NCBI RefSeq assembly: GCF_024723255.1
Contig: NZ_JANIAC010000001.1
Location: 1,565,548 to 1,629,547, forward strand
From: Aestuariibaculum sp. M13
GTDB lineage: Bacteria; Bacteroidota; Bacteroidia; Flavobacteriales; Flavobacteriaceae
Direction: 5' to 3'
DNA: 64,000 nucleotides
In this document: positions 35,591 through 55,688 of the stretch, piece after piece
Layout of the letters: each line of letters starts with the position of its first letter
How positions within the stretch are numbered: the stretch's first letter is position 1
Made by a program: the position numbers and the translations under genes
The notes under the pieces: generated by a model
The model's input: only the letters and a program-made list of their open reading frames with translations
The model's database searches: none
Told to the model about the DNA's origin: nothing

Positions 35591-35607
35591 GTACTCAAGG
35601 TGGGAAT
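35591..35607. repeat. Left attachment-site repeat (copy of tRNA-Leu 3' end)
   Basis: GTACTCAAGGTGGGAAT is identical to 55672-55688, the 3' end of tRNA-Leu. The base after the repeat differs between the copies (T here, C in the tRNA). It lies 134 bp from the integrase start and bounds a 20.1-kb element. Confidence 0.85.
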
Positions 35608-35741
35608 TTTTAAGTTTAGAAGGGAAAAAATGAACCAACTAAAAGTTAATAATATCAAGGCTTTCCGGAGGTTTTTAATTTTGTTTTTTCCTTTTTTTAG
35701 TTAAATTTATCACATATTTGTTACTATTTTGTTACTGATTT

Positions 35742-36821
35742 ATGAGTGTAAAACTTAGAGAAAGAAAGTTAGCTAAAGGGGCTGTAAAATACTATTTAGA
35801 CATTTATGTGAACGGCGAGCGTTCGTATGAGTTTTTAGACGTTAGAATTGAGCCAAACGACACAAAGTCTGCTAAAGCTGAAAAGAAGGACATAGCAAAC
35901 TTAATGAGATCTAACAGAGAGTTGGAACTTCTTACCAAAAATACCAATTACTTACCTAAGCATTTAAAGAATTTAAACTTTTTTGATTTTGCTGAAGATT
36001 ATGTAGAAGACTACCTTAAAAAGGATGTTCGAATGGTAAGTGCAGCATTAAAGCAATTTCAAGCTTATGTAAATAACCCAAAATTAAAGTTGGTTGATGT
36101 AACACCAAATTTAATGATTGGGTTCAAGGATTATTTAAATGATGATGCTGGTTTGTCTGGAGAATCTCCTCATAATTATTTTACTCGATTTAAGAAAATA
36201 TTAAAGCATGCTGAGCTTGAGGGATTGATTAGGGAAAATCCAACTAAGAATATCAAATTTCAAAGAAAAAATGGCAAGGATGAACTTAGAAAACAGGTTT
36301 TAACTTCAGAAGAATTACAGACCTTAGCCAAAACTGAATGTGGTAATCAAGAATTAAAAAAGGCCTTTCTCTTTGCTTGTTATACAGGGTTAGGTTATGC
36401 CGAAATAAAGAACCTTAAATGGTGTAATCTTATAGATAATCGACTATCTACGCGTCGAGAGAAAACAAATTTAAAAGTAGAATTAAAAATTCGTGAAAGC
36501 ATGCTTCAAATATTAGGGGAGAGAGGTTAGAAGGAAGAGTTGATTTTTAATCTTGTTAACGAAAAAGGTAATTCGATTTCAGATAACGGGGTAAATAAAT
36601 GTTTGAAGAATTGGGTTCAAAGAGCTAAAATAGATAAACATATTACATTTTATTGTGCAAGACATACTTTTGCAACTCAGTTGTTACTATATGGGGCAAA
36701 TTTGAAAACCGTAGCAGATGCTTTAGGTCATGCTGATACAAGAAACACAATAAAGTATTTAAATTATATTGATAGCTTAAAGGATGATGCTGTTGATAAT
36801 TTACCAGAAATAGTATTTTAA
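35742..36821 (+). pseudogene. Tyrosine recombinase/integrase split by an in-frame TAG
   Basis: Two open parts in the same frame (35742-36530 and on to 36821) are separated only by TAG at 36528-36530; read through, they give about 359 residues, a normal integrase length. The N-terminal arm-binding part (KLRERKLAKGAVKYYLDIYV) and the SAM-like core-binding domain (about 85-185) are intact. In the catalytic domain the box I region reads CYTGLGYAEIKNLKW, with Gly where Arg is canonical. Box II reads FYCARHTFATQLL (Arg-His present, Tyr at the usual His), and LGH plus the TIKYLNY tyrosine are present. Loss of box I Arg also occurs in active Bacteroidota integrases such as IntDOT, so the stop codon is the main defect. 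Confidence 0.85.
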
Positions 36822-36830
36822 AAAGAATTA

Positions 36831-37751
36831 ATGATAGATTACATTGAGTTATATACATCTAACTTTAATAAATTTAGGTTAGATGGTACAGAGAGAATAA
36901 AAAATCAATTAATTGACTATAAAAATAATTATTCTAGCTTTTATAACGCTTTCAACACAATATTAAAAGAGAATTATGTTAAAGGCCAAGATTCCTTTAT
37001 AAATAAAGAGGAACCATATAGGGGTCTCTATAACCTATTCCAGGATAGGTTTCGATTATTTGAAGCGGAACACAATTTGAAAATTATAGAGCTAGTCATA
37101 TTAGAAAAATACAATAGTTTAAAGATCTCTATTGATTATACATTTGATGAATTTATTTTAGAGTTGGCTAAAGTTGAGGCTTTAAAAGAAAATAATAGGC
37201 TTTTTCATTTGTATTCCACTATTTATAAGTTGATGTATCAAGTTGGGGTTTTTGATGATTTTGAGCTGGTGGAATATAATATGGTTGAGGAAAATGTTCC
37301 CTTGTTTAAAAAATATCACGCTTTAATCTATGGGGTGAAAAGTAAATCTTTATCACTATTAGAAAACAATAGGCAAGAAGAAATCAATTTTAAAATAAAG
37401 AGTAAATTTTTGAAGAGGTTTAAAGAGTCCTATTATGAGTTTACCGGTTATTATATTGACGAAAATAAAACGTCCTATGATGATTTTTGTAAGGTGTTTT
37501 TGAATGATATTGGAACTCATAAATCAGAGATACATTTTCATTGCGACACAAAATTAGCGTCTTTGCTATTGAACAATTTAAACGAAGAAATATTTGATAA
37601 TCTTTCACAGGTAAATATAGCTAAGTCAAAGTTGTTTAAAAGTCAAGGCGGGAAACCTCTTTCACAATCTACTTTATCTAGAACAAAGTTAAATGCGTCA
37701 CATTCAGATCATGATATTGTTGCTTCTACACTTCAGTTTTTAAAACAATAA
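36831..37751 (+). CDS. Hypothetical protein of the integrative element, 306 aa
   Basis: A soluble, mostly helical protein rich in Lys, Asn, Leu and Phe with no signal or membrane segment. The C-terminal part (HFHCDTKLASLLLNNLNEEIF, then SKLFKSQGGKPLSQSTLSRT) looks like a small DNA-contacting or partner-binding domain. Proteins of this size and place, between integrase and excisionase-like gene, are frequent in Bacteroidota elements, but I know no function. It starts 9 bases after the integrase stop, so it is co-transcribed. Confidence 0.65.
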   Translation: MIDYIELYTSNFNKFRLDGTERIKNQLIDYKNNYSSFYNAFNTILKENYVKGQDSFINKEEPYRGLYNLFQDRFRLFEAEHNLKIIELVILEKYNSLKISIDYTFDEFILELAKVEALKENNRLFHLYSTIYKLMYQVGVFDDFELVEYNMVEENVPLFKKYHALIYGVKSKSLSLLENNRQEEINFKIKSKFLKRFKESYYEFTGYYIDENKTSYDDFCKVFLNDIGTHKSEIHFHCDTKLASLLLNNLNEEIFDNLSQVNIAKSKLFKSQGGKPLSQSTLSRTKLNASHSDHDIVASTLQFLKQ

Positions 37752-37897
37752 TTCATCTCAAAAGTTAAAATTCATGCATATATGCATGTGAAATGTATAT
37801 ATGTATTTCTCTTTTTAAAATGTAGTACATATTTGTGCCTGTATACAAACAGGTACTAGATCTAGGCCATAAATCATTAACGAATAAAATCGAATTT

Positions 37898-38194
37898 ATG
37901 GAACATATACAAGATGTCCTACATAGAATTGAAAGAAATCAATTTCTATTCAAAACAGTATTAACCTTTGAAGAAGGTTGTGAATACTGTGGTATTTCAA
38001 AAAGTAAGATGTATAAGCATACGTCTTCAAATAATGTCCCTTATTATAAGCCGGAGGGTAAACTGATCTTTTTTAAACGAGAAGAATTAGATGAGTGGCT
38101 ATTGCGAAATAGGCAATCAACTATGCAAGAGCGTGAACAAGAAGCTGTAAAATATAGCTTGAAGTCAAGAAAGTCTGACCGTCAAAAAAGATAG
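37898..38194 (+). CDS. Excisionase-like helix-turn-helix protein
   Basis: 98 residues from the ATG at 37898; a GTG at 37835 would add 21 residues and is less likely. The core is a MerR/Xis-type winged helix: LTFEEGCEYCGISKSKMYKHTSSNNVPYYKP, then KLIFFKREELDEWLL, as in DNA-bending excisionases and the HTH_17 family. The basic C-terminus (SLKSRKSDRQKR) may add DNA contacts. It probably directs excision with the integrase or regulates the replication genes. It ends 3 bases before the next gene. Confidence 0.8.
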   Translation: MEHIQDVLHRIERNQFLFKTVLTFEEGCEYCGISKSKMYKHTSSNNVPYYKPEGKLIFFKREELDEWLLRNRQSTMQEREQEAVKYSLKSRKSDRQKR

Positions 38195-38197
38195 TTT

Positions 38198-38686
38198 ATG
38201 AAAAAGAAGAAATTAAACCTTCGTATAGAGGAAGAGCTAGTTAATGGATTAGATCAATTAGCTTATCTTGAGAATAAAACAGTATCTGCTGTTGTTAGAG
38301 AAGCGGTTGTTAATCATTTAAGACAACATGAATTAAAGCAGTTGCCTGAACATTATAATCCTTTAGAATTACTTCAATCATTAGGTTTTTCAGAGCTCAT
38401 ATTTTGGGTTTATGAAAAGCGTTTTGAGCCAGCAAATACTGACGAAATGTTTTTATATTGGAATCTTATCGATATAATTGAAGAAATTCAAATTAACCCA
38501 ATTTTTCCAGACACTCTAAAGGCGGAGTTTAGAAAAGTTGGAAGGGAATTAAAGGTTTTAACTGATGAAAGTGATTATATCTTAGATTTTAGTTTTCCGG
38601 AGAGTTTAAATTATAGTGAATTAGCTTACTTCATGTATACTTTGAGGTTTGGAGATTTAGGCGAAGTAGAAATCGCTATAAAATAG
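38198..38686 (+). CDS. Ribbon-helix-helix (CopG-like) protein
   Basis: 162 residues. The N-terminal 50 residues (KKKLNLRIEEELVNGLDQLA and VSAVVREAVVNHLRQH) form a ribbon-helix-helix DNA-binding domain. The C-terminal 110 residues are not recognised. It is likely a copy-number, replication or transcription regulator for the element, judging by its place directly ahead of the DUF3987 gene (6 bases). No toxin partner is seen, so it is not called an antitoxin. Confidence 0.7.
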   Translation: MKKKKLNLRIEEELVNGLDQLAYLENKTVSAVVREAVVNHLRQHELKQLPEHYNPLELLQSLGFSELIFWVYEKRFEPANTDEMFLYWNLIDIIEEIQINPIFPDTLKAEFRKVGRELKVLTDESDYILDFSFPESLNYSELAYFMYTLRFGDLGEVEIAIK

Positions 38687-38692
38687 TTGGCA

Positions 38693-39967
38693 ATGGATTA
38701 TACCAATAAAGATCGGTTAAAAGATAAGCTTGACAGTCTTTTTGAGTGCAGTCCGAAGGTTTTAACAGGGAAATTAGATAAAATAATTTCCCTGTTGCCA
38801 TTGGAATATTCTACGCTTATTGATCAGGCTTTTTTATGCAAAAGGGTTCCTAAGGAATATTTGCTAGGTTCTATTTTGTTTACGGTAAGTACTTCTGTAG
38901 GTTTGACTTTTTACATAGAACAGTTAGGTTATAAAAATTATGGTAATTGTTATTTTACAATAGTTGGAAGCCGTGGTGATGCGAAGTCCGAAGCAATAAA
39001 AATTGCTACAAAGCCCATAAAAAAAATCGACGATCAAGACTACGAAGATTATAATGAGCAGAAAAATTACGGAGAAGAAGATGGTGTAAAAAGAAAACAA
39101 ATACTTGTTCAAAATGCATCGATTGAAGCGGCGCATAAAATCCATTTCGAAAATCCGAATTCAGTCGGTATAGCAATTGATGAAGTTTATGGGCTTGTAG
39201 AAAAAATGTCTAACCCGAACAGTAGGGATGGAATCGCTTGGCGGAATTTTTTTTTAGAAGGTTACACAAATAGCTATATTGATGTTTCAAGGAAAACTAC
39301 TGAAAGCTTTAGAATAAAAGAGTCGTATCCAACACTAATAGGAGGGTTACAGCATCAATTTTTACCTCAATTATTTGCTAATGGAAATTTAGAAAGCGGT
39401 TTTATAGATAGACAGTTTTTTACTTTAAAATTAACTCAAAATTCTACGTTGAGTCAGGCTCAAATTAAAGCGGAAGTTTTAGAAAACTACGAAAAGGCGA
39501 TAAATAATATTCTGGCCTATAAAAGACAAAGTGAAAGACTAGATGAAAGCATAAAGCAGTTTGAAATTAAAGTCTCTAATAGAGCTTCTGAAACCTTGTT
39601 TAATTATGCTCAGACATTAATTAATCGGCAATTAGAAGCAAAGCCGATACTTAAGGAATATATGTCTAAGATGCAGATATCAATTCAAAAGTTATGTGTA
39701 CTTATTTTTATAATGAAGCAGTCGGTTAATTCTACTTTTAAAACCGAATTAACTATAGATGTAGTGGATCTTGCTATAGAATTAAATGAATTTTATTTCT
39801 TAAATTTTCAATCAATTGTTGAAGACAATATTAAAACAAAACCCTTAGAGCCTACATTGGAGCAAATCATTCGAGTTGCTAAAAGGAATAAAGCAAGTCA
39901 AAAGGCCGTGGCAGAGATTACCGGATTACATAAAGGTACGGTTTCAAAAAAGTGGAATAAAAAGTAA
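38693..39967 (+). CDS. DUF3987 helicase-like protein
   Basis: 424 residues from the ATG at 38693; a TTG two codons earlier is a weaker choice. YLLGSILFTVSTSVGLTFYI, the P-loop-like GSRGDAKSEA and AIDEVYGLVEKM (Walker B-like acidic pair) match DUF3987 proteins, predicted primase/helicase-associated ATPases of mobile elements. The C-terminus has a helix-turn-helix (KASQKAVAEITGLHKGTVSKKW). It probably unwinds or loads at the replication origin of the excised element, together with the TOPRIM protein encoded next. Confidence 0.78.
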   Translation: MDYTNKDRLKDKLDSLFECSPKVLTGKLDKIISLLPLEYSTLIDQAFLCKRVPKEYLLGSILFTVSTSVGLTFYIEQLGYKNYGNCYFTIVGSRGDAKSEAIKIATKPIKKIDDQDYEDYNEQKNYGEEDGVKRKQILVQNASIEAAHKIHFENPNSVGIAIDEVYGLVEKMSNPNSRDGIAWRNFFLEGYTNSYIDVSRKTTESFRIKESYPTLIGGLQHQFLPQLFANGNLESGFIDRQFFTLKLTQNSTLSQAQIKAEVLENYEKAINNILAYKRQSERLDESIKQFEIKVSNRASETLFNYAQTLINRQLEAKPILKEYMSKMQISIQKLCVLIFIMKQSVNSTFKTELTIDVVDLAIELNEFYFLNFQSIVEDNIKTKPLEPTLEQIIRVAKRNKASQKAVAEITGLHKGTVSKKWNKK

Positions 39968-40085: not shown

Positions 40086-41039
40086 ATGTTACAAAAATTA
40101 GAAAATAATTTACAGTTTGAAGTAAAGCGCAATAAAAAGCTCGTGACTCCTTGCTGCAACAGAAGTAATAAGGATGGTAAATTTGCTAATTTTAAAGGTT
40201 TTCCAGAGGTTTATGGTTATTGTCATTCTTGTGGGACTTCAACTTTGCCACCGACACTATATCGAAATGATTTAGGAGCTGAATTTGTATGGAACGAAGA
40301 GCAAGAAAAATTTGTAGAAGCAGATAATAATACCATTTCATGTGTTTTAAACAGTCTTTCCGTTTCTGATGTCAATACTACTGTAGAGAAGATAAATAAA
40401 CAATTTATAGAAAATGACATTGTGCAAATGTTTCTTGAAAACTCAAAAGAAAATAATTTGCTAACATATTTAAGGAATCGATATGGAGATTTGCTAATTG
40501 ATGAAATAAAGTTAAAGTATTTAATAGGAACTAGCAGAAAAGGAGGAACTGTATTTTGGAATATAAATGTTGAAGGGAAGGCTCAAAAGGCTAAAGTAGT
40601 TTATTATACAAATGACGGTAAACGAACTGATTATTTTCAGGTTCCATACAAAAATCAGGATGGATACTATAGTTGCTTGTTTGGAGAACATTTAATTAAA
40701 AAGAGCAAAAATCGAGGTAAAACCTTAGTGTTGGTTGAAAGTGAAAAAACAGCTCTTGTGTGCTCTTTGCATTTACCAGAATATGTTTGGTTGGCATATG
40801 GTGGAATTAATGGGCTAACTACCGATAAACTAAATGTTTTAGTTGGTTATGATGTTATTTTGGTTCCAGATATGAGTAATAATGCTGTCTCGATAATGGA
40901 AAACAAGTTAGATCTAATGAAGGATTTAGGTGTAAAAGTGAAGATATGGGACATGACAAAAGGGAAAACTGATGATCAATTAAAGGAAGAAGGATGGTAT
41001 AATTGCGACCTAGAGGATGTTTTTAGATACTTTAATTAG
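40086..41039 (+). CDS. Zinc-finger/TOPRIM primase-like protein (DUF6371-like)
   Basis: 317 residues. An N-terminal zinc ribbon is formed by CCNRSNKDGKF and YCHSCG (about residues 19-52), as in CHC2-type primase fingers. A linker follows (about 60-200). A TOPRIM-type fold is then suggested by LVLVESEKTALVCS (with the acidic Glu) and DVILVPDMSN (with the Asp pair position). It resembles Bacteroidota element proteins annotated as DUF6371/TOPRIM. It probably primes replication of the excised element. It is the last gene before a 480-bp repeat-rich non-coding stretch. Confidence 0.75.
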   Translation: MLQKLENNLQFEVKRNKKLVTPCCNRSNKDGKFANFKGFPEVYGYCHSCGTSTLPPTLYRNDLGAEFVWNEEQEKFVEADNNTISCVLNSLSVSDVNTTVEKINKQFIENDIVQMFLENSKENNLLTYLRNRYGDLLIDEIKLKYLIGTSRKGGTVFWNINVEGKAQKAKVVYYTNDGKRTDYFQVPYKNQDGYYSCLFGEHLIKKSKNRGKTLVLVESEKTALVCSLHLPEYVWLAYGGINGLTTDKLNVLVGYDVILVPDMSNNAVSIMENKLDLMKDLGVKVKIWDMTKGKTDDQLKEEGWYNCDLEDVFRYFN

Positions 41040-41049
41040 AGTTGTGTTT

Positions 41050-41456
41050 AGCCTAGATATAACAGATTGTTAGGTATGCAGGGGTGCACTGAGATGTACT
41101 ATTGTGTGGTGTTTTTGTGGCATTTTAAGGTGTTTTAGCCTGGATATAATAGATTGTATGGTGCGCAGGGGTGTACAGAGGTGTGCTATTTTGTGGTATT
41201 TCATGAGTGTTTTCATGGTGTAATTGTGGCGTTTTTGTGGTGTTTTAGTGGTATTTTATGTTGTTCAGCCTAGATGTAATGGATTGTTTGGTGTGCAGGG
41301 GTGTACTGAGGTGTGCTATTGTGTGGTGTTTCATGGGGTTTTCATGGTGTAATTGTGACGTTTTGGTTGAAGTGTGGTGTAGTATTGTGTGGTTTTGGTG
41401 GTATTTTATGATTTTTTTAGCATAGATGCAGTGAATGGGTGGTGTGTTGTTCCGTG
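41050..41456. repeat. GT-rich long direct repeats, four imperfect copies
   Basis: A conserved core beginning AGCCTAGATRTAAYRGATTG and running through GCAGGGGTGYAC to GTGCTATT starts at 41050, 41137 and 41277, with a shorter fourth copy at 41419 (AGCATAGATGCAG). Spacings are 87, 140 and 142 bases. Between cores lie further shared blocks (TTTCATG, GTTTTCATGGTGTAATTGTG). The plus strand is strikingly G+T rich and C poor. No open frame is supported. It may be an iteron-like origin, transfer site or structured RNA. It fills most of the 484-bp gap 41040-41523. Confidence 0.75.
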
Positions 41457-41523: not shown

Positions 41524-42384
41524 ATGAAGACATTTACTGATTTTAAAACTTTTAACAACTACTTTGGAACAGAGCCACCTTTAAATGAGCATATAGATGT
41601 TGGAATTTATGGCGACACGTATATAATGCAATCGGATGAAGTTTGTTTAGATTATCATAGAATATCATTAAAGCAACGTATACATTTCCCTAAAGGACAT
41701 GAATACGAGCATCTAAATGAAGATTCAGTAAGTGCCTTTTTTTACAGTAGCCCAAAGGATGTCAATGCTTGGTATATAGAAAAACGATTTAAAGGATATT
41801 ATATTCAATTTTCAAAAGAAATTATAAGTAAAAACAAACATGTTTTTAAAAGATTGATGGACTTTGGAAAACATGAACCCTTGTTTCTTAATCAAGAAGA
41901 GGAGGAGGAGATTGAAAACGTTTATAAGGCTTTATATAAACATTATATAGATAATCCAGATGAGCAAGAGATTTTATTAGCTTATGCAAACGTTTTATTT
42001 AGTCTTGTAGAGCGTTTTTATAAAAGACATTTGCAAAAAAATGTACAAAACTATAATGCAACCATAGTTGAGTTTCAAACGTTGTTAAATAGTTATTACG
42101 CGAGAGAAAAGGAACATGTAGAACTTCCTACTGTTGCCTATTTTTCGGAAATATTAAATGTAACACCAAACTACTTAGGTGATATTAATAAAAAATACAC
42201 AGGTTTATCTGCTATAGACCATATTCAAGCCTATATTATAGAAGAGGCTAAATTAAAATTACAGAAATCTAATAAACCAATCAAAAAGATTGCCTTGGAA
42301 TTAGGTTTTGAATATCAAACATACTTCACTCGATTCTTCAAGTCAAAAGTAGGAGTCACCCCATCTTCTTATAGAAAACAGTAA
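41524..42384 (+). CDS. AraC family transcriptional regulator (copy 1)
   Basis: 286 residues. The N-terminal part (about 1-175) is a variable sensor half. The AraC domain at about 185-286 has VAYFSEILNVTPNYLGDINK, then IKKIALELGFEYQTYFTRFF and GVTPSSYRK. It is clearly paralogous to the next gene (shared openings MKTFTDFKTFNNYF and MNTFKNFESFNEYI, and VTPNYLGD/LTPNYLGD). It probably controls the redox and hydrolase cargo genes downstream. Cytosolic. Confidence 0.88.
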   Translation: MKTFTDFKTFNNYFGTEPPLNEHIDVGIYGDTYIMQSDEVCLDYHRISLKQRIHFPKGHEYEHLNEDSVSAFFYSSPKDVNAWYIEKRFKGYYIQFSKEIISKNKHVFKRLMDFGKHEPLFLNQEEEEEIENVYKALYKHYIDNPDEQEILLAYANVLFSLVERFYKRHLQKNVQNYNATIVEFQTLLNSYYAREKEHVELPTVAYFSEILNVTPNYLGDINKKYTGLSAIDHIQAYIIEEAKLKLQKSNKPIKKIALELGFEYQTYFTRFFKSKVGVTPSSYRKQ

Positions 42385-42489
42385 TTTGTTTCAAAATACA
42401 AAGTAATTCGTTTTAATATCACCCTATTTCTTATTGCTAACTTTAACGAAGATGACCAAGCTGTTTTATCCCTATTAAAACGTCCTTTA

Positions 42490-43359
42490 ATGAATACATT
42501 TAAGAATTTTGAGTCTTTTAATGAGTACATAGGGTTAGAAAGGCCCATTGATAATAACATTGATGTTGGAGTTTATCCGGATAAAACCAAATTAAAATCT
42601 GAAAGCATTTATATCGATTTTTATAGAGTTTCTTTCAAAACAAACTATATAAACCCGGAGTTACCAGATTATGATCCTGAAAACCCTAAGCCAATAACAG
42701 CTGTTTTTTTTAATAACCCAGGAAGTGCTTATGAATGGGATTTAGACGATAAGTTCGAAGGTTATTATCTACATCTATCTAAGGATTTAATAGATAAGCA
42801 TCGGTATTTATTTCAGAACTATTTGGAATATGGTTATCATGAAGCTTTATTTTTAACAAAGGATGAAGAAACAGAAGTTATCAATCTGTATCAGTTTCTT
42901 ATAAAGCACTACCGAAACAATTTAGAAAACTATAATGTTCTTTTAGCGTCTATAAATCTTATTTTAAATATGGTTGAGTCATACTATAGACGTCAATTTA
43001 AAACAGATGTAAAAGTTTATAGTCCTATAGTTAGTGAATTTCAACAATTATTAAGAGACTATTATCAAGGACCAATAGAGGGTATACCTACGGTTCATTA
43101 TTTTGCTGAAAAAATGCATCTAACTCCTAATTATTTAGGTGATGTTATTAAAACTTATACCCATAAGTCTACAATCGAAACTATTCACGAACATGTTGCC
43201 GAAAGAGCGAAGACCTTACTTAAGGAAAGTACCCTAAGTAATACTGAAATTGCTTTTGAACTAGGTTTTGATTACCCAAACTATTTCGCCAAGTTTTTTA
43301 AAAAACAAACGCAACTAACCCCAAAGCAATTTAGAGCAAAATTTAAGCTTGTAGATTGA
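42490..43359 (+). CDS. AraC family transcriptional regulator (copy 2)
   Basis: 289 residues, a tandem paralogue of the previous gene over its whole length. The AraC domain has VHYFAEKMHLTPNYLGDVIK, LSNTEIAFELGFDYPNYFAKFF and LTPKQFRAKF. Both sensor halves keep NIDVGVY/HIDVGIY and a YYLHLSKDLIDKH/YYIQFSKEIISKN segment, suggesting related ligands. It lies 105 bp after copy 1 and 117 bp before the alpha/beta hydrolase gene, whose promoter box at 43432-43439 is a natural target. Confidence 0.88.
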   Translation: MNTFKNFESFNEYIGLERPIDNNIDVGVYPDKTKLKSESIYIDFYRVSFKTNYINPELPDYDPENPKPITAVFFNNPGSAYEWDLDDKFEGYYLHLSKDLIDKHRYLFQNYLEYGYHEALFLTKDEETEVINLYQFLIKHYRNNLENYNVLLASINLILNMVESYYRRQFKTDVKVYSPIVSEFQQLLRDYYQGPIEGIPTVHYFAEKMHLTPNYLGDVIKTYTHKSTIETIHEHVAERAKTLLKESTLSNTEIAFELGFDYPNYFAKFFKKQTQLTPKQFRAKFKLVD

Positions 43360-43431
43360 TAAATGTTCGGATTCAGTAAAATGTTTCCTTTTTTGAAGTG
43401 AATCTTATCCTGTAAAACTCTAGTTGTCAAG

Positions 43432-43439: not shown

Positions 43440-43476
43440 TCTTGTAGAATTTTATTAATCATTAAAACTAAATATT

Positions 43477-44418: not shown

Positions 44419-44435
44419 TACAGATTTAATTATAT

Positions 44436-47366: not shown

Positions 47367-47392
47367 TAAGGGAAAATTGATGTAAAAAACAT

Positions 47393-48037: not shown

Positions 48038-48051
48038 CTATAACTATTATT

Positions 48052-48951
48052 ATGGCTTTAGAAGTAATCAAATCGAAAATAGGTGATGTAGAAATTATCC
48101 AAGTTGTAGAGCAACCACTTGACCAATATTATTCAATGTTCCTACCAATGGCAACACCAGAGGAAATAGAAAAAATAGATTGGCTAAAAACATCACACCA
48201 TGTAAACAAAGACCTTTCTTTAAAAGGAAGTTCGCAAATGTTTGTTGTCAAAGTGAACAAACGTGTTTTTGTAATCGACACATGTATAGGTAATGAAAAG
48301 CAACTATTGGAATTTCCGTTTTGGGCAAACCAAAAATTTGAGTTTTTAGAAACTTTAGATGAAATAGGTTTCGATAAAAATTCAGTTACAGATGTCTTGT
48401 GTACACATTTACATTTAGACCACGTGGGTTGGAACACTTATTATAAAGATGGTATTTGGCATCCTACGTTTCCAAAGGCAAAGTACCATTTTGCCAAAGA
48501 TGAATACGATTGGTGGCATGAAGTAGCACCAGTAGATGATTTTTTGATTACCCATAAAGATGTTTTGATGCAATCGGTTTATCCAGTTATACGTGCAGGA
48601 TTGGCAAATTTTGTTGCAAGAGATGCCGATTTAGGCGATGGTATTTCTTTGATTTCTACACCTGGACATACAGTAGCTCATATTTCAGTTCAAGTTAAAA
48701 ATGGCGACCAAACTTTTATTATTGGTGGAGATATGTGTCATCACCCTTGCCAAATAGCCAAACCAGATTGGGCAATGGCTGCTGATTTTAGCCAAGATCA
48801 ATCGACTGAAAGTCGTCAAAAAATGTTTGAAAATATAGCAGATACCGAAACACTTTACACGTGTACACACTTTAAAAGTCCGTCCTTTGGAAAAGTCAAA
48901 AAGAACGAAAATGGTGAGTATGTATATAACAGTATCGATTATTCCAAATAG
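48052..48951 (+). CDS. Metallo-beta-lactamase-fold hydrolase
   Basis: 299 residues without a signal peptide. The metal motif is HLHLDH (His119, His121, Asp123, His124), with further ligands in STPGHTVAH and GGDMCHHP and a closing His (CTHFKSP). The layout is that of the lactonase / methyl-parathion-hydrolase branch (AHL lactonase-like), so a lactone or ester substrate is likely but not proven. It adds a second hydrolase to the operon beside the dienelactone-hydrolase-like gene. Confidence 0.87.
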   Translation: MALEVIKSKIGDVEIIQVVEQPLDQYYSMFLPMATPEEIEKIDWLKTSHHVNKDLSLKGSSQMFVVKVNKRVFVIDTCIGNEKQLLEFPFWANQKFEFLETLDEIGFDKNSVTDVLCTHLHLDHVGWNTYYKDGIWHPTFPKAKYHFAKDEYDWWHEVAPVDDFLITHKDVLMQSVYPVIRAGLANFVARDADLGDGISLISTPGHTVAHISVQVKNGDQTFIIGGDMCHHPCQIAKPDWAMAADFSQDQSTESRQKMFENIADTETLYTCTHFKSPSFGKVKKNENGEYVYNSIDYSK

Positions 48952-48954
48952 CCT

Positions 48955-49638
48955 ATGATTGTTATTAAACACTGTAAAGTATATGTTTTACTAATCTTAT
49001 TAGTGCTTTCCTTTTCTGTATCGGCACAAGTTGCAGCAGAAAAAGAAGGCACGTATTTATATACGGGATTTTCTTCAGCTCTTCCAGGTAATAATAGTTT
49101 CGTGTTTTACTATGGTTATAGTCCCTCTGATGATTTTCAATCCCTAATTGCTTTACCATTTTTTAAAATCACAAATAATATTCAGTTCATGCCTGGATAC
49201 ATGATGACTAAGGCTGATGGATATAGAATGTTTACCAATGTCCAACATCATTTATTGCCAAGTGTTATTTTGAATTTTAAACTAAGTGAAAGATTTTCAA
49301 TAACCGACAGAAATATGTTTTATCATTTGTTTAGAGAAGATACTAAAGATGTCAACCTTTATAGGAATAGATTGGGCCTTATTTATCACACCAAGCTATT
49401 TAAGAAAGCAACAAACTTATTTATTCATGATGCAATGTTCTGGAATCTAAATAATGGAAAATTTTTTAGAAATAGGATAATACTCGGAGGTTCCATAAAA
49501 GCTGCTAAATGGATGACACCACAAATTTGGTATGCCTATCAAGCTGAAAATGGTCTATTGCCACAACATCAATTTTATCTTATCTTAACTGTGCCATTAG
49601 AAAATTTTGGAGTATTTAAGTCAAAAACAAATAATTAA
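48955..49638 (+). CDS. Predicted outer-membrane beta-barrel protein
   Basis: 227 residues. The signal peptide LLILLVLSFSVSAQ is cleaved at about residue 25. The mature part alternates aromatic and polar residues in strand-like stretches (GTYLYTGFSSALP, SFVFYYGYSP, RFSITDRNMFYHLF, NRLGLIYHTKLF, QFYLILTVPL), which suggests a small barrel of the DUF2490 kind, though that family is not certain. It starts 3 bases after the MBL gene. It may admit or export the operon's substrate. Confidence 0.65.
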   Translation: MIVIKHCKVYVLLILLVLSFSVSAQVAAEKEGTYLYTGFSSALPGNNSFVFYYGYSPSDDFQSLIALPFFKITNNIQFMPGYMMTKADGYRMFTNVQHHLLPSVILNFKLSERFSITDRNMFYHLFREDTKDVNLYRNRLGLIYHTKLFKKATNLFIHDAMFWNLNNGKFFRNRIILGGSIKAAKWMTPQIWYAYQAENGLLPQHQFYLILTVPLENFGVFKSKTNN

Positions 49639-49663
49639 CTAACCTTTATTAACCTAAAACTTA

Positions 49664-50221
49664 ATGAAAAAAGAACGTTTTGAAGCAATTACTGATGCCG
49701 TAATGGCCATTATTATTACTATCATGGCATTAGAAATAGAGCTACCGAATTTCGATGAAGAAGGTATCAATGAGTTTATAATGCAAATTGGAATATATAT
49801 TCTTAGTTATGCATTTATAGCGATTCTTTGGATCAATCATCATAACATATTTAGGCATGTAAAGATGGTAGATCATACTACATTATGGCTTAACTTTTTA
49901 CTGTTGTTTTCAACGTCTTTGATTCCTTTAGCTACCAGAACAATAGATAAGGCATATTTTGATAACAAGAGCCATATTTTATTTGCCTTGATTTTCGGTT
50001 CTGCTACACTTTTGTATTTTTTGTTAGATGAAAGAGCTATTAAATTATCGGAGAATAAAAGGGTTGCTGACACTCGAAAAATGAATATTATTGCCACGTT
50101 GCTTTTCTTTCTAGCAATACCTTTTAGTTATTTAAGCATTTATATATCATCCGCAATATTTGTTTTAGTCCCAACAGCATATTTTTTATTGCCACGTAAG
50201 CAAATTAAGAGTGTCATTTAA
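49664..50221 (+). CDS. TMEM175-like (DUF1211) membrane protein
   Basis: 185 residues with about five to six helices. The N-terminal signature ERFEAITDAVMAIIITIMALEIELP corresponds to the R-x-x-x-FSD motif of TMEM175 potassium channels but reads ITD rather than FSD. LIPLATRTIDKAYFDNKSH is also typical. Bacterial members conduct K+ with low selectivity. The altered motif lies in the pore helix, so conduction is uncertain. Inner membrane. It heads a membrane-protein block in the cargo operon. Confidence 0.82.
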   Translation: MKKERFEAITDAVMAIIITIMALEIELPNFDEEGINEFIMQIGIYILSYAFIAILWINHHNIFRHVKMVDHTTLWLNFLLLFSTSLIPLATRTIDKAYFDNKSHILFALIFGSATLLYFLLDERAIKLSENKRVADTRKMNIIATLLFFLAIPFSYLSIYISSAIFVLVPTAYFLLPRKQIKSVI

Positions 50222-50232
50222 TATCAAACTAT

Positions 50233-50817
50233 ATGGAAGAAAATTACCTTAAGGACGAATTATTCCATTCTAAAAAGGAGCCTCGTAAGGCACTACAAAC
50301 CTTTTTAAGAAACCAAAATAAGTTGGTCATTAATTCATTTAATATGATTGATAGAAAGGCAGCAATCATGATTAGAATTAATGCAACAATAATATCTGTA
50401 ATAATAGTGTTTTTCGACTATGTGAAGGATATTAAAATGGGGAACTACATAGGAGGTATTATGGTAGTTGCTTCCTTCATTTCATTGATATTGGCTATTA
50501 ATGCTTCGAGGCCTCATATTTTTAAGTTGTACCGAAGATTTAAAAACAAAATAGGTGGGAAATATTTAGGTCTAGAGCATAAGGTTTTTTCTGTTGGTAT
50601 GTTTGATCGAGAACCTTTGGAAGATTATTTAAAGGCATATGACAAAGTTTTAAAAAGTCAGGAACTACAAGTAGGTAATCAGATAAGAACCATGTATTTA
50701 CTAGAAAAATACACGAAGGATGCCTTTTTACATCTCGAATTATCTTATTGGGCTTTTATTATAGGCTTTTCATCAATGGTCTTTTTGTTTATAGTTGGAA
50801 CAATAATAAACGTTTAA
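50233..50817 (+). CDS. Pycsar effector-family (PycTM/DUF5706-like) membrane protein, no cyclase nearby
   Basis: 194 residues. The hallmark IDRKAAIMIRINATIISVIIVF (helix 1, about 38-62), a second helix followed by INASRPH, the FSVGMFDREPLEDYLKAYDKV segment, and the C-terminal IRTMYLLEKYTKDAFLHLEL plus a last helix fit the Pycsar effector family (PycTM). In defence systems such proteins damage the membrane on binding cCMP or cUMP. No pyrimidine cyclase gene is found in the window. It sits 11 bases after the TMEM175-like gene within a redox operon, so a non-defence role is possible. Confidence 0.7.
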   Translation: MEENYLKDELFHSKKEPRKALQTFLRNQNKLVINSFNMIDRKAAIMIRINATIISVIIVFFDYVKDIKMGNYIGGIMVVASFISLILAINASRPHIFKLYRRFKNKIGGKYLGLEHKVFSVGMFDREPLEDYLKAYDKVLKSQELQVGNQIRTMYLLEKYTKDAFLHLELSYWAFIIGFSSMVFLFIVGTIINV

Positions 50818-50827
50818 TAATAATAAA

Positions 50828-51505
50828 ATGATGAAAAAAGTTATAATAACAGGAGCTTCTGGTATGTTGGGTAAAGCAGTTTTACAAGAGTGCTTAGAAC
50901 ATTCAGAAATAGTAAAGGTTTTAATAATTAACAGAAAATCAATAGGGGTTTCTCATGATAAGTTAGAAGAGTTGATTTTAAAGGATTTTTCAGGGATTGA
51001 GTTAGAAAGGGAGCATTTAAAAGGTTATGATGCGTGCTTTTATTGTATGGGAGTTTCAGCTGTAGGTATGAATGAAGAAACCTATGTAAATATAACCTAT
51101 AACATCACTAAAATGTTTGCCGATGTTTTATTTGATATAAATCCTAATATTGTATTTAATTATATATCTGGGGCAGGAACTGATACTTCGGAAAGCGGAA
51201 AAGTTATGTGGGCTAGAGTAAAAGGTAAAACGGAAAATTACATTCTTAATAAAGGATTTAAAAAGGCTTTAATGTTCAGACCTGGTTTAATAATCCCAGA
51301 AAAAGGTACTAAATCCAGAACAGGGTGGCTAAATACGACGTATACAATAATGAGTCCGCTTTTTCCTTTATTAAAAAAATCAAGTAGTATAACAACATCA
51401 ACTAATATTGGTTTAGCCATGATTAACTCACTGTTAGTCGATGCAAATTCGAAATACCTTTCCAACAAGGAGATTAATTTGCTTGCTAAAAAAGAAGTAG
51501 TTTAG
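50828..51505 (+). CDS. NAD-dependent epimerase/dehydratase-like protein
   Basis: 225 residues. The Rossmann motif TGASGMLGKAVLQE (residues 7-20) is followed by CFYCMGVSAVGMNEETY and ISGAGTDTSESGKVMWARVKGKTE (Ser and a Lys at the YxxxK position but no clear Tyr), then LMFRPGLIIPEKG. It resembles short atypical SDRs related to HTATIP2/oxidoreductase-like proteins. Function unknown. It is the third atypical SDR in this operon. It lies 10 bases after the Pycsar-effector-family gene. Confidence 0.78.
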   Translation: MMKKVIITGASGMLGKAVLQECLEHSEIVKVLIINRKSIGVSHDKLEELILKDFSGIELEREHLKGYDACFYCMGVSAVGMNEETYVNITYNITKMFADVLFDINPNIVFNYISGAGTDTSESGKVMWARVKGKTENYILNKGFKKALMFRPGLIIPEKGTKSRTGWLNTTYTIMSPLFPLLKKSSSITTSTNIGLAMINSLLVDANSKYLSNKEINLLAKKEVV

Positions 51506-51537: not shown

Positions 51538-52572
51538 ATGATAGTAACAAAAAGCATAAGCTTTAAACGCTTAATGAAAACAACGGGTCATCACTTCCTG
51601 TGGCTTCTTCCGTTAATGGGGAGTATTGCTGCCTTATATCATTTTGATATAATCACTTTCAAAATACCTTGGGTTCCTGTATCGGTTATTGGTACCGCTG
51701 TAGCATTTTATGTAGGTTTTAAAAACAATCAATCGTATGATAGATTATGGGAAGCACGTAAAATATGGGGAGGTATTGTGAACGATAGTCGTGCCTGGGG
51801 GATGATGGTTGATGGCTTTATTACAAATCAATTTACAAATAAGGTTATTTCGGAAGATGAATTAAAAAAAATAAAGAAAAGGCTAGTTTATCGTCATATA
51901 GCTTGGTTGTATGCACATCGAAGTCAATTATTAGTTCCAACGTCCTGGGAGCATAGTTCGCAATCAGGTCATATTGGTAAATCAGCACAGAAAAACCAAG
52001 AAAAATTTGGAGTAGGTCTGATAGATGATGAAGAAACGAGAAGTAGTCTAGATACCTTTTTATTACCAGACGAGCATGAACGTTTAGTAAATGCAGCTAA
52101 TACAGCAACACAAATAATTAATGAGCAATCAAGGGACTTAACACAGTTAAGAAAAGACTATATCATTGATGATTTTAGACATATGGAGATGGAAAGTGTC
52201 TTGAGAACGTTTTATGAGTTACAAGGTAAAAATGAACGTATTAAGAAATTCCCTTTGCCAAGACAATATGCAAATATGAGTCGTTACTTCGTGGGTATAT
52301 TTATTGCGTTTTTGCCATTTAGTATGGTTCCAGAAATGATGCATGTGGGTCAATTAGGCTTTTGGCTGTCTGTACCAGTTGTTGCATTAATAGGTTGGAT
52401 ATATGTCACCATGGAATTAGTTGGTGATTATTCCGAAAACCCATTTTCAAGTATGGCAAATGACATTCCAATGCTCTCTTTATGTAGAGTAATAGAAATT
52501 GACCTACGGGAAATGTTAGGTGAAACAGATCTACCTCCAGCTATTGAAGCTAAAAAAGGAGTGTTGATGTAG
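51538..52572 (+). CDS. Bestrophin-family anion channel
   Basis: 344 residues. The bestrophin/UPF0187 pattern is clear: an N-terminal helix (HHFLWLLPLMGSIAALYHF), VSVIGTAVAFYVGFKNNQSYDRLWEARKIWGGIVNDSR, and the C-terminal LGFWLSVPVVALIGWIYVTMELVGDYSENPF with NDIPM. Bacterial bestrophins form pentameric ion channels. Last plus-strand gene of the cargo operon, ending 3 bases before the end of the convergent 70-aa gene. Confidence 0.9.
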   Translation: MIVTKSISFKRLMKTTGHHFLWLLPLMGSIAALYHFDIITFKIPWVPVSVIGTAVAFYVGFKNNQSYDRLWEARKIWGGIVNDSRAWGMMVDGFITNQFTNKVISEDELKKIKKRLVYRHIAWLYAHRSQLLVPTSWEHSSQSGHIGKSAQKNQEKFGVGLIDDEETRSSLDTFLLPDEHERLVNAANTATQIINEQSRDLTQLRKDYIIDDFRHMEMESVLRTFYELQGKNERIKKFPLPRQYANMSRYFVGIFIAFLPFSMVPEMMHVGQLGFWLSVPVVALIGWIYVTMELVGDYSENPFSSMANDIPMLSLCRVIEIDLREMLGETDLPPAIEAKKGVLM

Positions 52573-52575: not shown

Positions 52576-52788
52576 TTAATTATTCGAATGAACAATATAA
52601 AGGTCAGATTGTGCTTCTTGAGATTCTGTTAAAAAAAGTTCAGAAGAGTCGCTTGTAGTTTGGTCAATATTTTCGTAATCGAATTTTGGAATCTTAAATT
52701 CACTTTGGGATATAACACTATTTTCTATGTGTTCAATAAATTCGTTCGAATAGTTCAACTCTTTTAATTTCTCGATTAATTCTTTCAT
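52576..52788 (-). CDS. Small hypothetical protein, 70 aa
   Basis: Its ATG overlaps the last 4 bases of the protease gene (52785-52788), a strong sign of translational coupling and that the frame is real. The protein is acidic and soluble (MKELIEKLKELNYSNEFIEH, then a Ser/Glu-rich tail). No family is recognised. The overlap suggests it is a partner, adaptor or inhibitor of the protease. Confidence 0.65.
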   Translation of the reverse strand: MKELIEKLKELNYSNEFIEHIENSVISQSEFKIPKFDYENIDQTTSDSSELFLTESQEAQSDLYIVHSNN

Positions 52789-53852
52789 TTCGCTGTGTTG
52801 TTAGTTTGTATGTCATTTCGGATTAAACAATAATAATCTGAAACAAATATTTTAGCCATAGATGTATTTTCAAAAGCCCAATAAAATAATGCCCACATTC
52901 TTCTCATTGATTTATCTAATCCAATGGATTCAGCGTGAGTTATTTTAAGTTGACAAACATCCCAAGCATCTTCTCTAGTAATTGCGTGACCGTGATTGTT
53001 CCATTCAGAATGATTTGCTAATAATTTAGCAATGTCTTTAGAACGTTTACGTTTTTCCTCATCAGTTACTGTATTTCCGTTGCTACTGTGTTTTGTCCAA
53101 GTTTTAAATTTGTAGTTGTAAAGATAATCTTCAACTAACTTTTCTGAGTATTTTGTACCACTAATTGCATAACCAATCTCTTTTGGGTCAATATTTTTTA
53201 ACAAAGTCAAATCTGTCCAATTTGGATTAGTTCCAGCTTTTATTGCTTTGTCTCCACGTTCTTTTATTTCTTCAACTAAATTTAAAATTGATTGAGCAGG
53301 GACAAATTGTCCATCAGGTTTTCGAATTTGTGGGTCAATAGGTCCGATGTTTGCAGAATGAGTCATTATAATTTCGTCACCTGAAAGTGCAAATATAGTT
53401 CCAGCTGACATAGCCATATTTAATAAAATAAAATTTACTCGTTCAAATCTGGGTCTTAATTTAGATACAAATTTCACTACTTGGTTTGATAAACCACCGG
53501 GTGAAACCAAGATGACATCTAGTTCTTTTGTGTTTGTGGGTAAAGTATTTATTAATTCCGTAAAAGGTAAGTCATCTTGATAATCAATAGAAACGGAAAC
53601 TTTAGTTTGTTTAACTACATTTGCTACATAACATACAACTTCATTTCCTCTAACGGCTTTAATTTCAGCTATACTTCTGCGAATCTCATCTAAAATATTG
53701 ACATTAGTGAATCTGTGAGAAAGTAAGCTTTCAAATTCACGTCCGTCAATCATTTTGTCCAGTACGGACTGTTTTGCGACCGGGTTTACAATTATTTGTT
53801 TTTGATTTGGGATGAAGTTTTTTTGTCCGCGATTTCTTCCACCTTTACTCAT
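52785..53852 (-). CDS. SDH_sah family serine protease-like protein (ClpP/SppA class)
   Basis: 355 residues. The ClpP-fold signature is ILVSPGG, then FILLNMAMSAGTIFALSGDEI with the catalytic Ser149 in MSAGT, and ANIGPIDPQI. This is the SDH_sah (serine dehydrogenase proteinase) group, related to signal-peptide peptidase SppA. The N-terminus is basic and disordered (SKGGRNRGQKNFIPNQKQ), with no signal peptide or clear membrane helix, so it is probably cytosolic or peripheral. Its substrate is unknown. It lies behind the attC-like site (53905-54038). Confidence 0.82.
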   Translation of the reverse strand: MSKGGRNRGQKNFIPNQKQIIVNPVAKQSVLDKMIDGREFESLLSHRFTNVNILDEIRRSIAEIKAVRGNEVVCYVANVVKQTKVSVSIDYQDDLPFTELINTLPTNTKELDVILVSPGGLSNQVVKFVSKLRPRFERVNFILLNMAMSAGTIFALSGDEIIMTHSANIGPIDPQIRKPDGQFVPAQSILNLVEEIKERGDKAIKAGTNPNWTDLTLLKNIDPKEIGYAISGTKYSEKLVEDYLYNYKFKTWTKHSSNGNTVTDEEKRKRSKDIAKLLANHSEWNNHGHAITREDAWDVCQLKITHAESIGLDKSMRRMWALFYWAFENTSMAKIFVSDYYCLIRNDIQTNNTAK

Positions 53853-53904: not shown

Positions 53905-54038
53905 GCCCAACTGTTGGGCTATGATTTCGGCGTGGAATCGTCCGCAGGACTATTCCGCGTAAGAAATCAGTTTAAATATTATGGTTTACTTTTGGTTTTT
54001 GCACTGTTGCCACGCTGAATTATAGCCGTTGTTAGGGC
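53905..54038 (-). repeat. Integron attC-like folded site
   Basis: The outer core sites are GCCCAAC (53905-53911) and GTTAGGGC (54031-54038). An internal arm GGCTATGATTTCGGCGTGG (from 53917) pairs imperfectly with CCACGCTGAATTATAGCC (54010-54027), and a central hairpin GGAATCGTCC/GGACTATTCC is at 53934-53955. On the minus strand the site begins at the stop codon of the 406-aa gene, as attC sites do in cassettes. No integron integrase gene is present. Confidence 0.6.
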
Positions 54039-55252
54039 AAGTTTATTTTATTAATTACTTCCTTTAGGATACTGAATTGTTCCTTGTGGTCTATAAGGCT
54101 TTTATCTTTGTCACTACTCACAGATATATTAAATTCTTGCTCTGAAATATGATCGAATAACTTATCAATATCAAGATTTTTCTCCTCTTTGGTTAATTTA
54201 TATAGTTCAAGAATTTTTAATTTTTCTTGATATATTCTGTAAAAATATTTATAATCTGAAATTATTTTCCTGTATTGTTTTAATAAAAACCAAGATATAC
54301 TTTCAATAAATATTAATATTGTGAGAGGTCTAATCCCTTTAATCAAGAACGAAGTGTAGTCATTCTTTTTGAAGTCATAATCTGGCAAGTTTATATAGAA
54401 AAAAATAACAGCTGTAAATGACATTAATATTCCAGAAATCAACATAAAGTTTGCTCTATTTTTTGTTTCTGTTGTTAATTTTTCAATATTGTCAATATTC
54501 AATTTCATAAAACTTTCAAGTTCATCCTTGATGATAAGTTTATTAACTTTTGCTTGAAGTTTTTTTAATTCAGAAGATTCTATTGAGTCATTTTTATCTT
54601 TTTTAAGGTTTTCTTCTAATTCCTTTTTTTCGTTATTGATTTTTTCTTTTTCTTCAGAGCTGACAGTTAAGTCATTGTTTGTTTTAATGAATATTAAAGG
54701 AAGTATATAAAGTATCAAATTAATTATTATCCAGCTTATTAGAATTATTAAAAACTTGTTTAATCTAAATTCCTTATTGATTGTCTTGTTAATATTGATA
54801 TAATCTGAATATTTTAATTGTTCAATAAATTCTTTTTTGTTTTTAACTCTTTTTTTTATTTCATTTAATTTAAATTCATCAATAGTCAATAAATATTTTA
54901 TAGAACTATATTTAAATATAAATGATGTGGGGATATCTTCAATTGTAGAAATGTCAATCTGATGTTCTTTTGAGTTGTCAATTTTTTCATAGTTCATCAA
55001 CTGATAATCAAAAGGCAGTGGTGATATACTATCAGACTGCTTAAAATTTGATTCAAATTCAGAAATAATTTCCTCTCTGAATTTTAACTGTTGTTTAAAT
55101 TCTAAAGAAGAAAGAGAAGGAGTGTTTTTATCAATATATTGTGGTACTGAGCCAATTTTTTCTGAATAATCCGCGAATAAAAGAATTATAAAAATGACTA
55201 AAATTATATTGATAAGGTAACGTATGATTTTAAACCAATCGTATTCGTTCAT
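54032..55252 (-). CDS. Hypothetical membrane protein with coiled coil, 406 aa
   Basis: One N-terminal helix (IIRYLINIILVIFIILLFA, about 8-26) precedes an extracytoplasmic-looking stretch (about 27-165). A second helix follows (FLIILISWIIINLILYILPLIF, about 170-192), then a charged coiled coil (about 198-250, EEKEKINNEKKELEENLKKD). Two more helices (about 268-287 and 302-320) and a helical tail end it. No family is recognised. The gene is very AT-rich. It is enclosed by inverted GTTGTTAGGGCAA-type ends (55271-55283 upstream and 54028-54040 at its stop), like an integron cassette. Confidence 0.7.
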   Translation of the reverse strand: MNEYDWFKIIRYLINIILVIFIILLFADYSEKIGSVPQYIDKNTPSLSSLEFKQQLKFREEIISEFESNFKQSDSISPLPFDYQLMNYEKIDNSKEHQIDISTIEDIPTSFIFKYSSIKYLLTIDEFKLNEIKKRVKNKKEFIEQLKYSDYININKTINKEFRLNKFLIILISWIIINLILYILPLIFIKTNNDLTVSSEEKEKINNEKKELEENLKKDKNDSIESSELKKLQAKVNKLIIKDELESFMKLNIDNIEKLTTETKNRANFMLISGILMSFTAVIFFYINLPDYDFKKNDYTSFLIKGIRPLTILIFIESISWFLLKQYRKIISDYKYFYRIYQEKLKILELYKLTKEEKNLDIDKLFDHISEQEFNISVSSDKDKSLIDHKEQFSILKEVINKINLP

Positions 55253-55270
55253 TTATATTTGTTTTAATTT

Positions 55271-55304
55271 GCCCTAACAACTGGATAGGCGCAATTACGT
55301 CTAT
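55271..55304 (-). repeat. Half attC-like sequence upstream of the 406-aa gene
   Basis: GCCCTAACAACTGG at 55271-55284 continues into ATAGGCGCAATTACGTC. On the minus strand it ends in GTTGTTAGGGC, matching the core at the far end of the 406-aa gene in inverted orientation. The pairing left arm is not found further right, so the site is probably truncated by the element boundary. The rest of the gap 55305-55630 shows no gene. Confidence 0.5.
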
Positions 55305-55633
55305 CTATATTATATTTATTTGGATAAATATAAATATTATTCTTACAAACATATAGTGGAAATCGAAATATTAAATAAATTAATTCAAGTAGTTTAGCTT
55401 TTAGTTAAAGAAATATTTTTACCACATTACTAATACCGGTATTTGGCCAATTTATTTTTGGTATATGTTAAAAAGACTATTACTGTTTGGGAAAGAGTAA
55501 GCATAAAGGGGTAAACTGTTGTTTAATGTGCTTTTTTTATGCTTTGTTGTAAAATGAATTTTTAATTAATATTTGTTCTTGATGGTTAAATTGAACCTGT
55601 TTTTGTGTTACTAGTTTGTTGCTATATAAATTG

Positions 55634-55669
55634 AAAACCCTTGTAAATCAAATGATTAACAAGGGTTTT
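55634..55669 (-). terminator. Terminator downstream of tRNA-Leu (element-borne)
   Basis: AAAACCCTTGT (55634-55644) pairs with ACAAGGGTTTT (55659-55669). Read on the minus strand it follows the tRNA 3' end by 3 bases. It resembles in position and sequence the palindrome beside the left repeat (35557-35586). Confidence 0.75.
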
Positions 55670-55671
55670 AT

Positions 55672-55688
55672 GTACTCAAGGTGGGAAT
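55672..55688. repeat. Right attachment-site repeat within tRNA-Leu
   Basis: GTACTCAAGGTGGGAAT, the second copy of the 17-bp repeat, covers the acceptor-stem 3' half and part of the T arm of tRNA-Leu. Insertion here restores a complete tRNA gene. Confidence 0.85.

Follow-up and report, generated by a model that had tools for sequence, protein, structure and literature searches.

An integrative element in a tRNA-Leu gene of Aestuariibaculum sp. M13 with an interrupted, tRNA-distal integrase and a probable replacement terminator

An element between 17-bp repeats at the 3′ end of tRNA-Leu(CAA)

In a 64,000-nucleotide stretch of the genome of Aestuariibaculum sp. M13 (Flavobacteriaceae; contig NZ_JANIAC010000001.1, positions 1,565,548–1,629,547; hereafter the window), a 20.1-kb interval lies between two mismatch-free copies of the 17-bp sequence GTACTCAAGGTGGGAAT, the left at 35591–35607 and the right at 55672–55688, where it forms the 3′ end of a tRNA-Leu(CAA) gene that ARAGORN places on the minus strand at 55672–55752. 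A preliminary description of this DNA, made from its letters, had proposed that the interval is an element inserted in this tRNA gene between the repeats, and the repeat search, the ARAGORN prediction and an empty site in a relative confirm that proposal. Sequence comparison established the boundaries, the empty site, the restored tRNA gene, a displaced terminator, a different hairpin on the tRNA side, matched repeat pairs and a broken integrase. We give a probability of about 0.85 to the reading that a tyrosine recombinase, by site-specific recombination, placed a 20.1-kb integrative element of a Flavobacteriaceae type in the 3′ end of the tRNA-Leu(CAA) gene that lies upstream of prs. The general kind of element is known, and the design of its ends is unusual but consistent.

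The 17-bp repeat matches the window exactly twice when up to three mismatches are allowed (0.12 matches expected from shuffles), and the nine contigs (4.16 Mb) of the organism's own genome hold two matches only at up to one mismatch. The preliminary description had named frequent occurrence of the repeat at unrelated places as a possible objection, and at up to one mismatch the genome offers no such case. Base composition alone would not have flagged the element. As in the tRNA-gene islands defined by Islander, an intact tRNA gene stands at one end and a displaced 3′ fragment in the same orientation at the other, with a tyrosine-integrase gene inside, although here a TAG codon interrupts that gene. 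Islander islands (PMC4383910) likewise have a restored tRNA and a 3′ fragment displaced to the other end, and they occur in tandem arrays; Islander retains those with an integrase gene and terms them putatively active, whereas the integrase gene of the window has a premature stop.

The preliminary description had called for an empty site, and a genome of the same species (G001, locus L016) supplies one: the gene for a 190-aa protein (96% identical) and prs (100%) are neighbors there, the left Blast match to the window ends at 35607 and the right one begins at 55661 (flank identities of 98.0 and 98.6%), and one repeat copy lies between, beside tRNA-Leu(CAA). Because this is a clean empty site, both boundaries of the element fall within the repeat. 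Another genome of the genus (G003) also has a single repeat copy, adjoining tRNA-Leu(CAA) and prs, and G004 carries a 14-kb relative of the element at the same tRNA site. The same tRNA-Leu has taken up other DNA as well: genome G002 (C43:23315–26587, locus L022) holds a different 3.3-kb insertion. Its tRNA fragment is longer, at ~50 bp, and suggests the use of this site by an integrase of another class.

The two repeats might instead mark two unrelated events, such as a tandem remnant and a later insertion, rather than the ends of one 20-kb unit; tandem accretion is indeed known at such sites in two relatives (G175 and G009). We consider a tandem or composite origin very improbable and have rejected it, because no third repeat copy lies inside the interval in either the window or the own-genome search. 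In addition, the short repeat pairs near the two ends (described below) match each other, and in the empty site the two flanks meet at the repeat.

The integrase is interrupted by an in-frame stop

The tyrosine-integrase gene starts 134 bp past the left repeat copy, on the plus strand. Its N-terminal part (35742–36530), in which Pfam recognizes Arm-DNA-bind_5 and Phage_int_SAM_5, ends by frame reading at an in-frame TAG (36528–36530), which is codon 263 of 360, codon 360 being the natural stop. After the TAG the same frame runs on to 36821 and contains the catalytic Phage_integrase domain (36540–36821). The preliminary description was right to place a tyrosine integrase beside the left repeat but overlooked this stop. 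The lineage was defined by a search with the Psychroserpens burtonensis integrase (L053), which is intact; this query matched 13 of 397 family genomes at E≤1e-70. A stop was reported in four rows from these 13 integrase-bearing genomes, and only in the window does it lie mid-gene; in the other three rows the match merely overruns the natural end of the integrase. The window integrase is 83–86% identical to three close relatives in the catalytic part after the stop and 70–74% in the N-terminal part, so that the stop looks recent. With its integrase broken, the window copy is probably fixed in place unless another integrase is supplied in trans.

At the alignment columns taken to represent Arg I and His II of tyrosine recombinases, the window integrase and all 13 of its aligned relatives have Gly and Tyr, respectively, so that the window integrase lacks this canonical pair. 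IntDOT of CTnDOT is likewise reported to do without Arg I.

A tRNA-distal integrase is the rule in this lineage

The 13 matching genomes and that of the query (G755) together provided 14 elements. A single contig spans both ends of 13 of them (12 of the matching genomes and G755), and in every one of these the integrase lies at the tRNA-distal end. The ends of the fourteenth (G245) are on two contigs; its arrangement is consistent with a tRNA-distal integrase and is counted as fitting, not as proven. The preliminary description had remarked on the distance between integrase and tRNA as less usual, an observation that was borne out, with the qualification that within this integrase lineage such geometry is the rule. 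All 14 targets are tRNA-Leu genes: CAA in 11 (the window, nine others and G755), each adjoining prs; TAA in two, adjoining tRNA-Gly; and GAG in one, adjoining tRNA-Lys. From repeat to repeat the elements span 4.9 to 53.6 kb (G245 excepted).

Two loci (L045 and L060) combine the DUF3987–DUF6371 core of the window's element with another integrase; they sit at tRNA-Asp with the integrase proximal, and the distal geometry therefore seems to track the integrase rather than the core. A search of 395 genomes across the order added a single new integrase (G618, from another family, 37% identity), which adjoins tRNA-Glu(TTC), so the distal rule does not extend past the lineage. At locus L049 the integrase is only ~24% identical, yet it too is distal, at tRNA-Leu(CAA), with a 13-bp repeat. 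Among the literature matches listed, no paper dealt with this lineage or with a tRNA-distal integrase.

Insertion swaps the hairpins at the two ends

Just outside the left repeat copy lies a terminator-like site on the minus strand (35557–35588; fold −14.2 kcal/mol, z −5.1), which is the original terminator of the host's tRNA-Leu, now standing at the element's left end; in the empty-site genome the same terminator directly follows the tRNA. Its former place, where the tRNA 3′ end now borders the element, is taken by another hairpin (55634–55669, minus strand; fold −17.4 kcal/mol, z −5.85 on the tRNA strand), a probable replacement terminator for tRNA-Leu. Insertion thus exchanges the hairpins, putting that of the element after the tRNA and that of the host before the integrase gene.

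All 14 right ends that we read have a palindrome close to the attachment repeat, at a distance of a few bases. Across 12 hand-centered right ends (all but G755 and G245), 142 of 156 pair cells were paired, compared with 124.6 ± 2.5 after shuffling (0 of 5000 shuffles as high), and several pairs showed two-sided changes. The left ends differ in sequence from the right-end hairpin, that of the window being the host terminator. Two overly strict DNA patterns written for the right end missed even the known ends, and their lack of matches carries no weight. The palindrome recurs in G175 (L092; tRNA-Leu(TAA); positions 4795, 8533 and 20029 in the stretch fetched), where it precedes both repeat copies to the left of the integrase-bearing element, a sign that elements of this lineage have accreted in tandem. 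In G009 an extra repeat copy lies ~24 kb past the integrase end.

Repeat pairs matched between the two ends are probable arm sites

A pair of direct repeats, TTTGTTACT, stands directly before the integrase start codon (35717–35736), and repeat matching identified a second pair like it at the right end (55604–55623). In the lineage, such short repeats ~11 bp apart occur at both ends, the left pair starting 106–116 bp after the left repeat copy and the right pair lying beside the hairpin and ending 45–60 bp before the right copy; these positions hold in 10 of 12 elements (again without G755 and G245). The left pair of the window, like that of its nearest relatives, ends a few bases before the start codon. 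When left and right ends of the same 12 elements were compared, the summed best 20-mer score was 206, as against 179.8 ± 5.0 for permuted pairings (0 of 20,000 as high). The repeat also co-varies at both ends, reading for example GTCACT in G352 and G230, GCTACT in G166 and TGTACT in G362. By analogy with lambda-type integrases, and because Pfam finds an Arm domain in the protein, we interpret these pairs as probable arm sites of the integrase (Int). The integrase leader of 7 of the 14 elements contains TAnnTTTG, the Bacteroidetes −7 motif; it overlaps a repeat in five of the seven, and the window is outside these five.

As a control we turned to tRNA-Leu(CAA) sites across the family. The tRNA-Leu(CAA) pattern was found in 93 of 199 family genomes, and of 30 sites fetched, 29 were readable, the other being at a contig end without upstream sequence. 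The repeat pair was present at three of the 29 (G000, G004 and G166), all bearing the integrase, and at none of the other 26. The palindrome center AATCA[AT]..[AG]ATTA occurred in G000 and G004 only, that of G166 having diverged, and the ordinary sites had their own, different hairpins.

These sites bear on another explanation of the element's hairpin, namely that it is a recombination signal, bound by a bending protein or by Int, and resembles a terminator in looks only. Its position between the repeat pair and the core is that of IHF sites in lambda-type attP, and in many members its center fits the Escherichia coli IHF consensus. The diverged members G331, G362, G090 and G245, however, retain the stem and not the center sequence, and ordinary tRNA-Leu sites end in a hairpin too (28 of the 29 readable sites fold at ≤−9 kcal/mol, including the three with an integrase). 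We therefore judge this explanation unlikely and retain a replacement terminator as the probable reading.

Several points weigh against our account of the ends and of the integrase. A simple terminator scan did not call the element hairpin, whose T run is short, and the IHF-like center means that the hairpin may serve recombination too. Shuffling and permutation leave shared ancestry in place as a source of the pairing and matching. In two of the 12 elements (G009 and G352) the best-scoring 20-mer pair lies elsewhere than the repeat pair, and the repeats of G090 have the reverse orientation. The 26 control sites belong to none of the 13 integrase-bearing genomes, although some may come from genomes outside the 397 searched. 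Finally, a sequencing error is a possible cause of the in-frame TAG.

A mobility and replication core followed by cargo

The preliminary description regarded everything between the repeats as accessory, which holds broadly; the left part, however, forms a core for mobility and replication (integrase, HTH_17, ribbon-helix-helix, DUF3987 and DUF6371 proteins) with relatives in other genomes. All core genes are on the plus strand. A 306-aa protein without assigned function (36831–37751) follows the integrase and is found next to it in the closest relatives too (28–37% identical). It had no family at 0.001 in Pfam or at 0.1 in NCBIfam and PHROGs; relaxing the threshold to E≤10 gave a spurious-looking match (0.011), the best among four members being a phycobilisome linker at 5e-4, which we rejected. 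The structure prediction from four sequences was poor (pLDDT 59.5) and all helical. Then come an excisionase-type HTH_17 DNA-binding protein (37835–38194; PF12728 2.1e-11, TIGR01764 9.9e-10), a ribbon-helix-helix protein (38198–38686; PF01402 2e-4), a helicase/primase-type DUF3987 replication protein (38687–39967; PF13148 1.3e-29, phrog_2373 DNA helicase 3.5e-22) and a DUF6371 protein (40086–41039; PF19898 5.1e-38), which from its position and type is probably part of the primase.

GT-rich direct repeats (41037–41415), comprising three 89-nt copies at spacings of 87 and 130 nt, lie almost entirely in a non-coding gap that has no open reading frame of at least 70 aa, and they mark a candidate replication origin. 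The computation of such repeats covered the window, L066 and L061; in the other 8 of 11 gaps inspection by eye revealed none, so the origin stays a candidate only.

The cargo genes proper (41524–51505, plus strand; Pfam) encode two AraC regulators, two short-chain dehydrogenases/reductases, NAD-binding proteins, two flavodoxin-type proteins, an alpha/beta hydrolase, a metallo-beta-lactamase-fold hydrolase, and DUF2490, TMEM175-type and PycTM-like proteins. Just one other of 249 family genomes has a relative of the metallo-hydrolase at E≤1e-60, and plasmid relatives of the alpha/beta hydrolase are numerous (314 of 72,556 records). Beyond these lie a bestrophin-type channel (51538–52572, plus strand; PF25539 4.7e-45) and, on the minus strand, two overlapping genes for a 70-aa protein and a ClpP-like SDH-type protease (52576–53852; PF01972 4.1e-14, phrog_11747 1.4e-45) and a gene for a 406-aa protein (54032–55252; 24% G+C), to which the Pfam scan assigned no function. 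The phrog_11747 family is an unnamed phage family, and the protease and its 70-aa neighbor could be a defense pair. No known defense system was recognized by PADLOC, which covered 8 of the 24 element proteins and returned only PycTM/2TM-effector-type matches (50233–50817, 6e-6 at best) and a weak bestrophin match (0.023). Among the neighbors of the PycTM-like membrane protein, Pfam recognized no cyclase.

Relatives of the DUF3987 protein at E≤1e-20 occur in 16 of 299 family genomes, and 18 named loci were identified. In a set of 22 loci including the window, the protein clusters include the integrase (18 loci), DUF6371 (18) and three of type I restriction–modification type (8, 7 and 7); several of these loci are cut by contig ends, and the restriction–modification clusters are not all downstream of the core. 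A defense scan of eight proteins from two elements found type I restriction–modification, PrrC and PDC-S05 in the cargo of A. suncheonense (L051) and DndD/PbeC and DndH-like proteins in that of G009 (L055).

Elements that share the integrase lineage vary further. The 22-kb element of G331 (L087/L088) encodes a MobA/VirD2-type relaxase (PF03432 9.4e-26) as well as domains of nitrite reductase and of molybdopterin oxidoreductase, and the 12.3-kb element of G090 (L086) a large terminase (5549–6829; phrog_2, 4.5e-30). Those of G166 and G234 are ~5 kb each; the former (L095, 1889–6778; 4.9 kb) has an integrase, an HTH_17 protein and a G2P-like replication protein (PF05144 1.7e-15) and is possibly a small replicon or a relative of filamentous phages.

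Satellite or mobilizable element

A prophage or an integrative and conjugative element was considered and rejected: across all 24 element proteins, Pfam found no capsid, portal, terminase or tail protein and no relaxase. In PHROGs, searched with 10 of the 24, the only matches in structural categories were those of the ClpP-like protein to a head maturation protease (3.7e-5) and of the PycTM-like protein to a head–tail adaptor (0.042).

One tentative possibility is a phage satellite resembling the PICMI elements of Vibrionaceae, which would be excised upon phage infection, replicated by the DUF3987 and DUF6371 proteins and packaged in helper capsids, with a cargo hotspot between primase and attachment site. 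The passages setting out the PICMI model (PMC10803314) name an integrase, AlpA or HTH_17, a DUF3987 or DUF5906 primase and a fis site; three of these four, the integrase, HTH_17 (PF12728) and DUF3987 (PF13148), are present here, and the order integrase, AlpA-type protein, primase, defense or cargo genes and attachment gene is shared. Type I restriction–modification, PrrC and Dnd-like genes occupy the cargo place in relatives, the G090 element with its related integrase encodes a large terminase, and a phage-labeled 6.0-kb fecal record has a 21%-identical DUF3987 protein. On the other side, the element is at tRNA-Leu instead of fis and its host is outside Vibrionaceae; viral contigs contained no DUF3987 relatives, and 50,697 phage records a single distant match, which three Bacteroides/Parabacteroides plasmids equal in distance; and 20 kb is a large size among minimal satellites. 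Our search of viral contigs found neither circle junctions nor satellites. The fecal record (MT837912.1) is an unannotated 'Bacteriophage sp.' entry of 5,996 bp in which the match covers 91% of the query.

The element could also be an integrative mobilizable element moved by the conjugation machinery of another element, its own relaxase having been lost or acting in trans, and we hold this possibility just as loosely. The relaxase of the G331 element, with its related integrase, argues for it, as does the combination of integrase, HTH_17 protein and primase, which is found in Bacteroidetes mobilizable elements too. The absence of a relaxase from the 24 element proteins argues against it; nor was one seen among clusters 0–11, those in at least 3 of the 22 core loci and covered in part by Pfam.

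Discussion

Beyond the differences of attachment gene and host phylum, the window element departs from the PICMI elements (PMC10803314) in its 20-kb length and its broken integrase, and it has additional ribbon-helix-helix, DUF6371 and 306-aa genes. The 10K island of Riemerella anatipestifer (PMC6764341), another Bacteroidota element, also combines a tyrosine integrase with direct repeats that adjoin a tRNA gene; there the repeat is 53 bp, the target tRNA-Arg and the integrase tRNA-proximal, and integration and excision were demonstrated.

After excision, the two ends would join in the circular form into a single attP module in the order repeat pair, hairpin, core, repeat pair and integrase gene. 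The Arm domain of Int would bind the repeat pairs and its other domains the core, the HTH_17 protein would act as excisionase, and the DUF3987 and DUF6371 proteins would replicate the circle, which might pass from cell to cell as a phage satellite or through borrowed conjugation. In the integrated state the hairpin would terminate the tRNA transcript. Lying at the far end, behind the displaced host terminator, the integrase gene would be beyond the reach of the tRNA promoter, and since the left repeat pair stands directly before its start codon, Int may repress its own synthesis.

This design can be compared with that of ICEKp1 (PMC13023037), whose insertion likewise occurs at the 3′ end of a tRNA gene and displaces the terminator of that gene. 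There the integrase gene, 161 bp away from the tRNA, is transcribed from the tRNA promoter, and stem-loops in its 5′-UTR, which form a potential terminator, attenuate this expression; element-side stem-loops at a tRNA are therefore not new. The window element presents the mirror arrangement, with the integrase far away and the element's hairpin directly at the tRNA.

A broader and rather doubtful proposal is that the ends and integrase constitute an integration module dedicated to tRNA-Leu, which has been adopted by mobile elements of several kinds in flavobacteria (DUF3987 islands, one element with a relaxase, one with a terminase and one of 5 kb with a G2P-like Rep) and whose DUF3987 members are PICMI-like satellites of Bacteroidota. 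Such a module would insulate the integrase by providing its own terminator for the tRNA, placing the integrase behind the displaced terminator of the host and setting arm sites in the integrase leader, the reverse of ICEKp1.

Integration at a tRNA 3′ end displaces the tRNA terminator, and ICEKp1 (PMC13023037) exploits this displacement to drive its integrase from the tRNA promoter. The lineage found here in 14 genomes has the opposite geometry, with a distant integrase and a hairpin that probably replaces the terminator. The two would represent contrasting designs for integrase control that can be tested as a pair, and the flavobacterial lineage now offers ends defined to the base, together with attachment sites and probable arm sites, in islands bearing phage-defense or metabolic genes.

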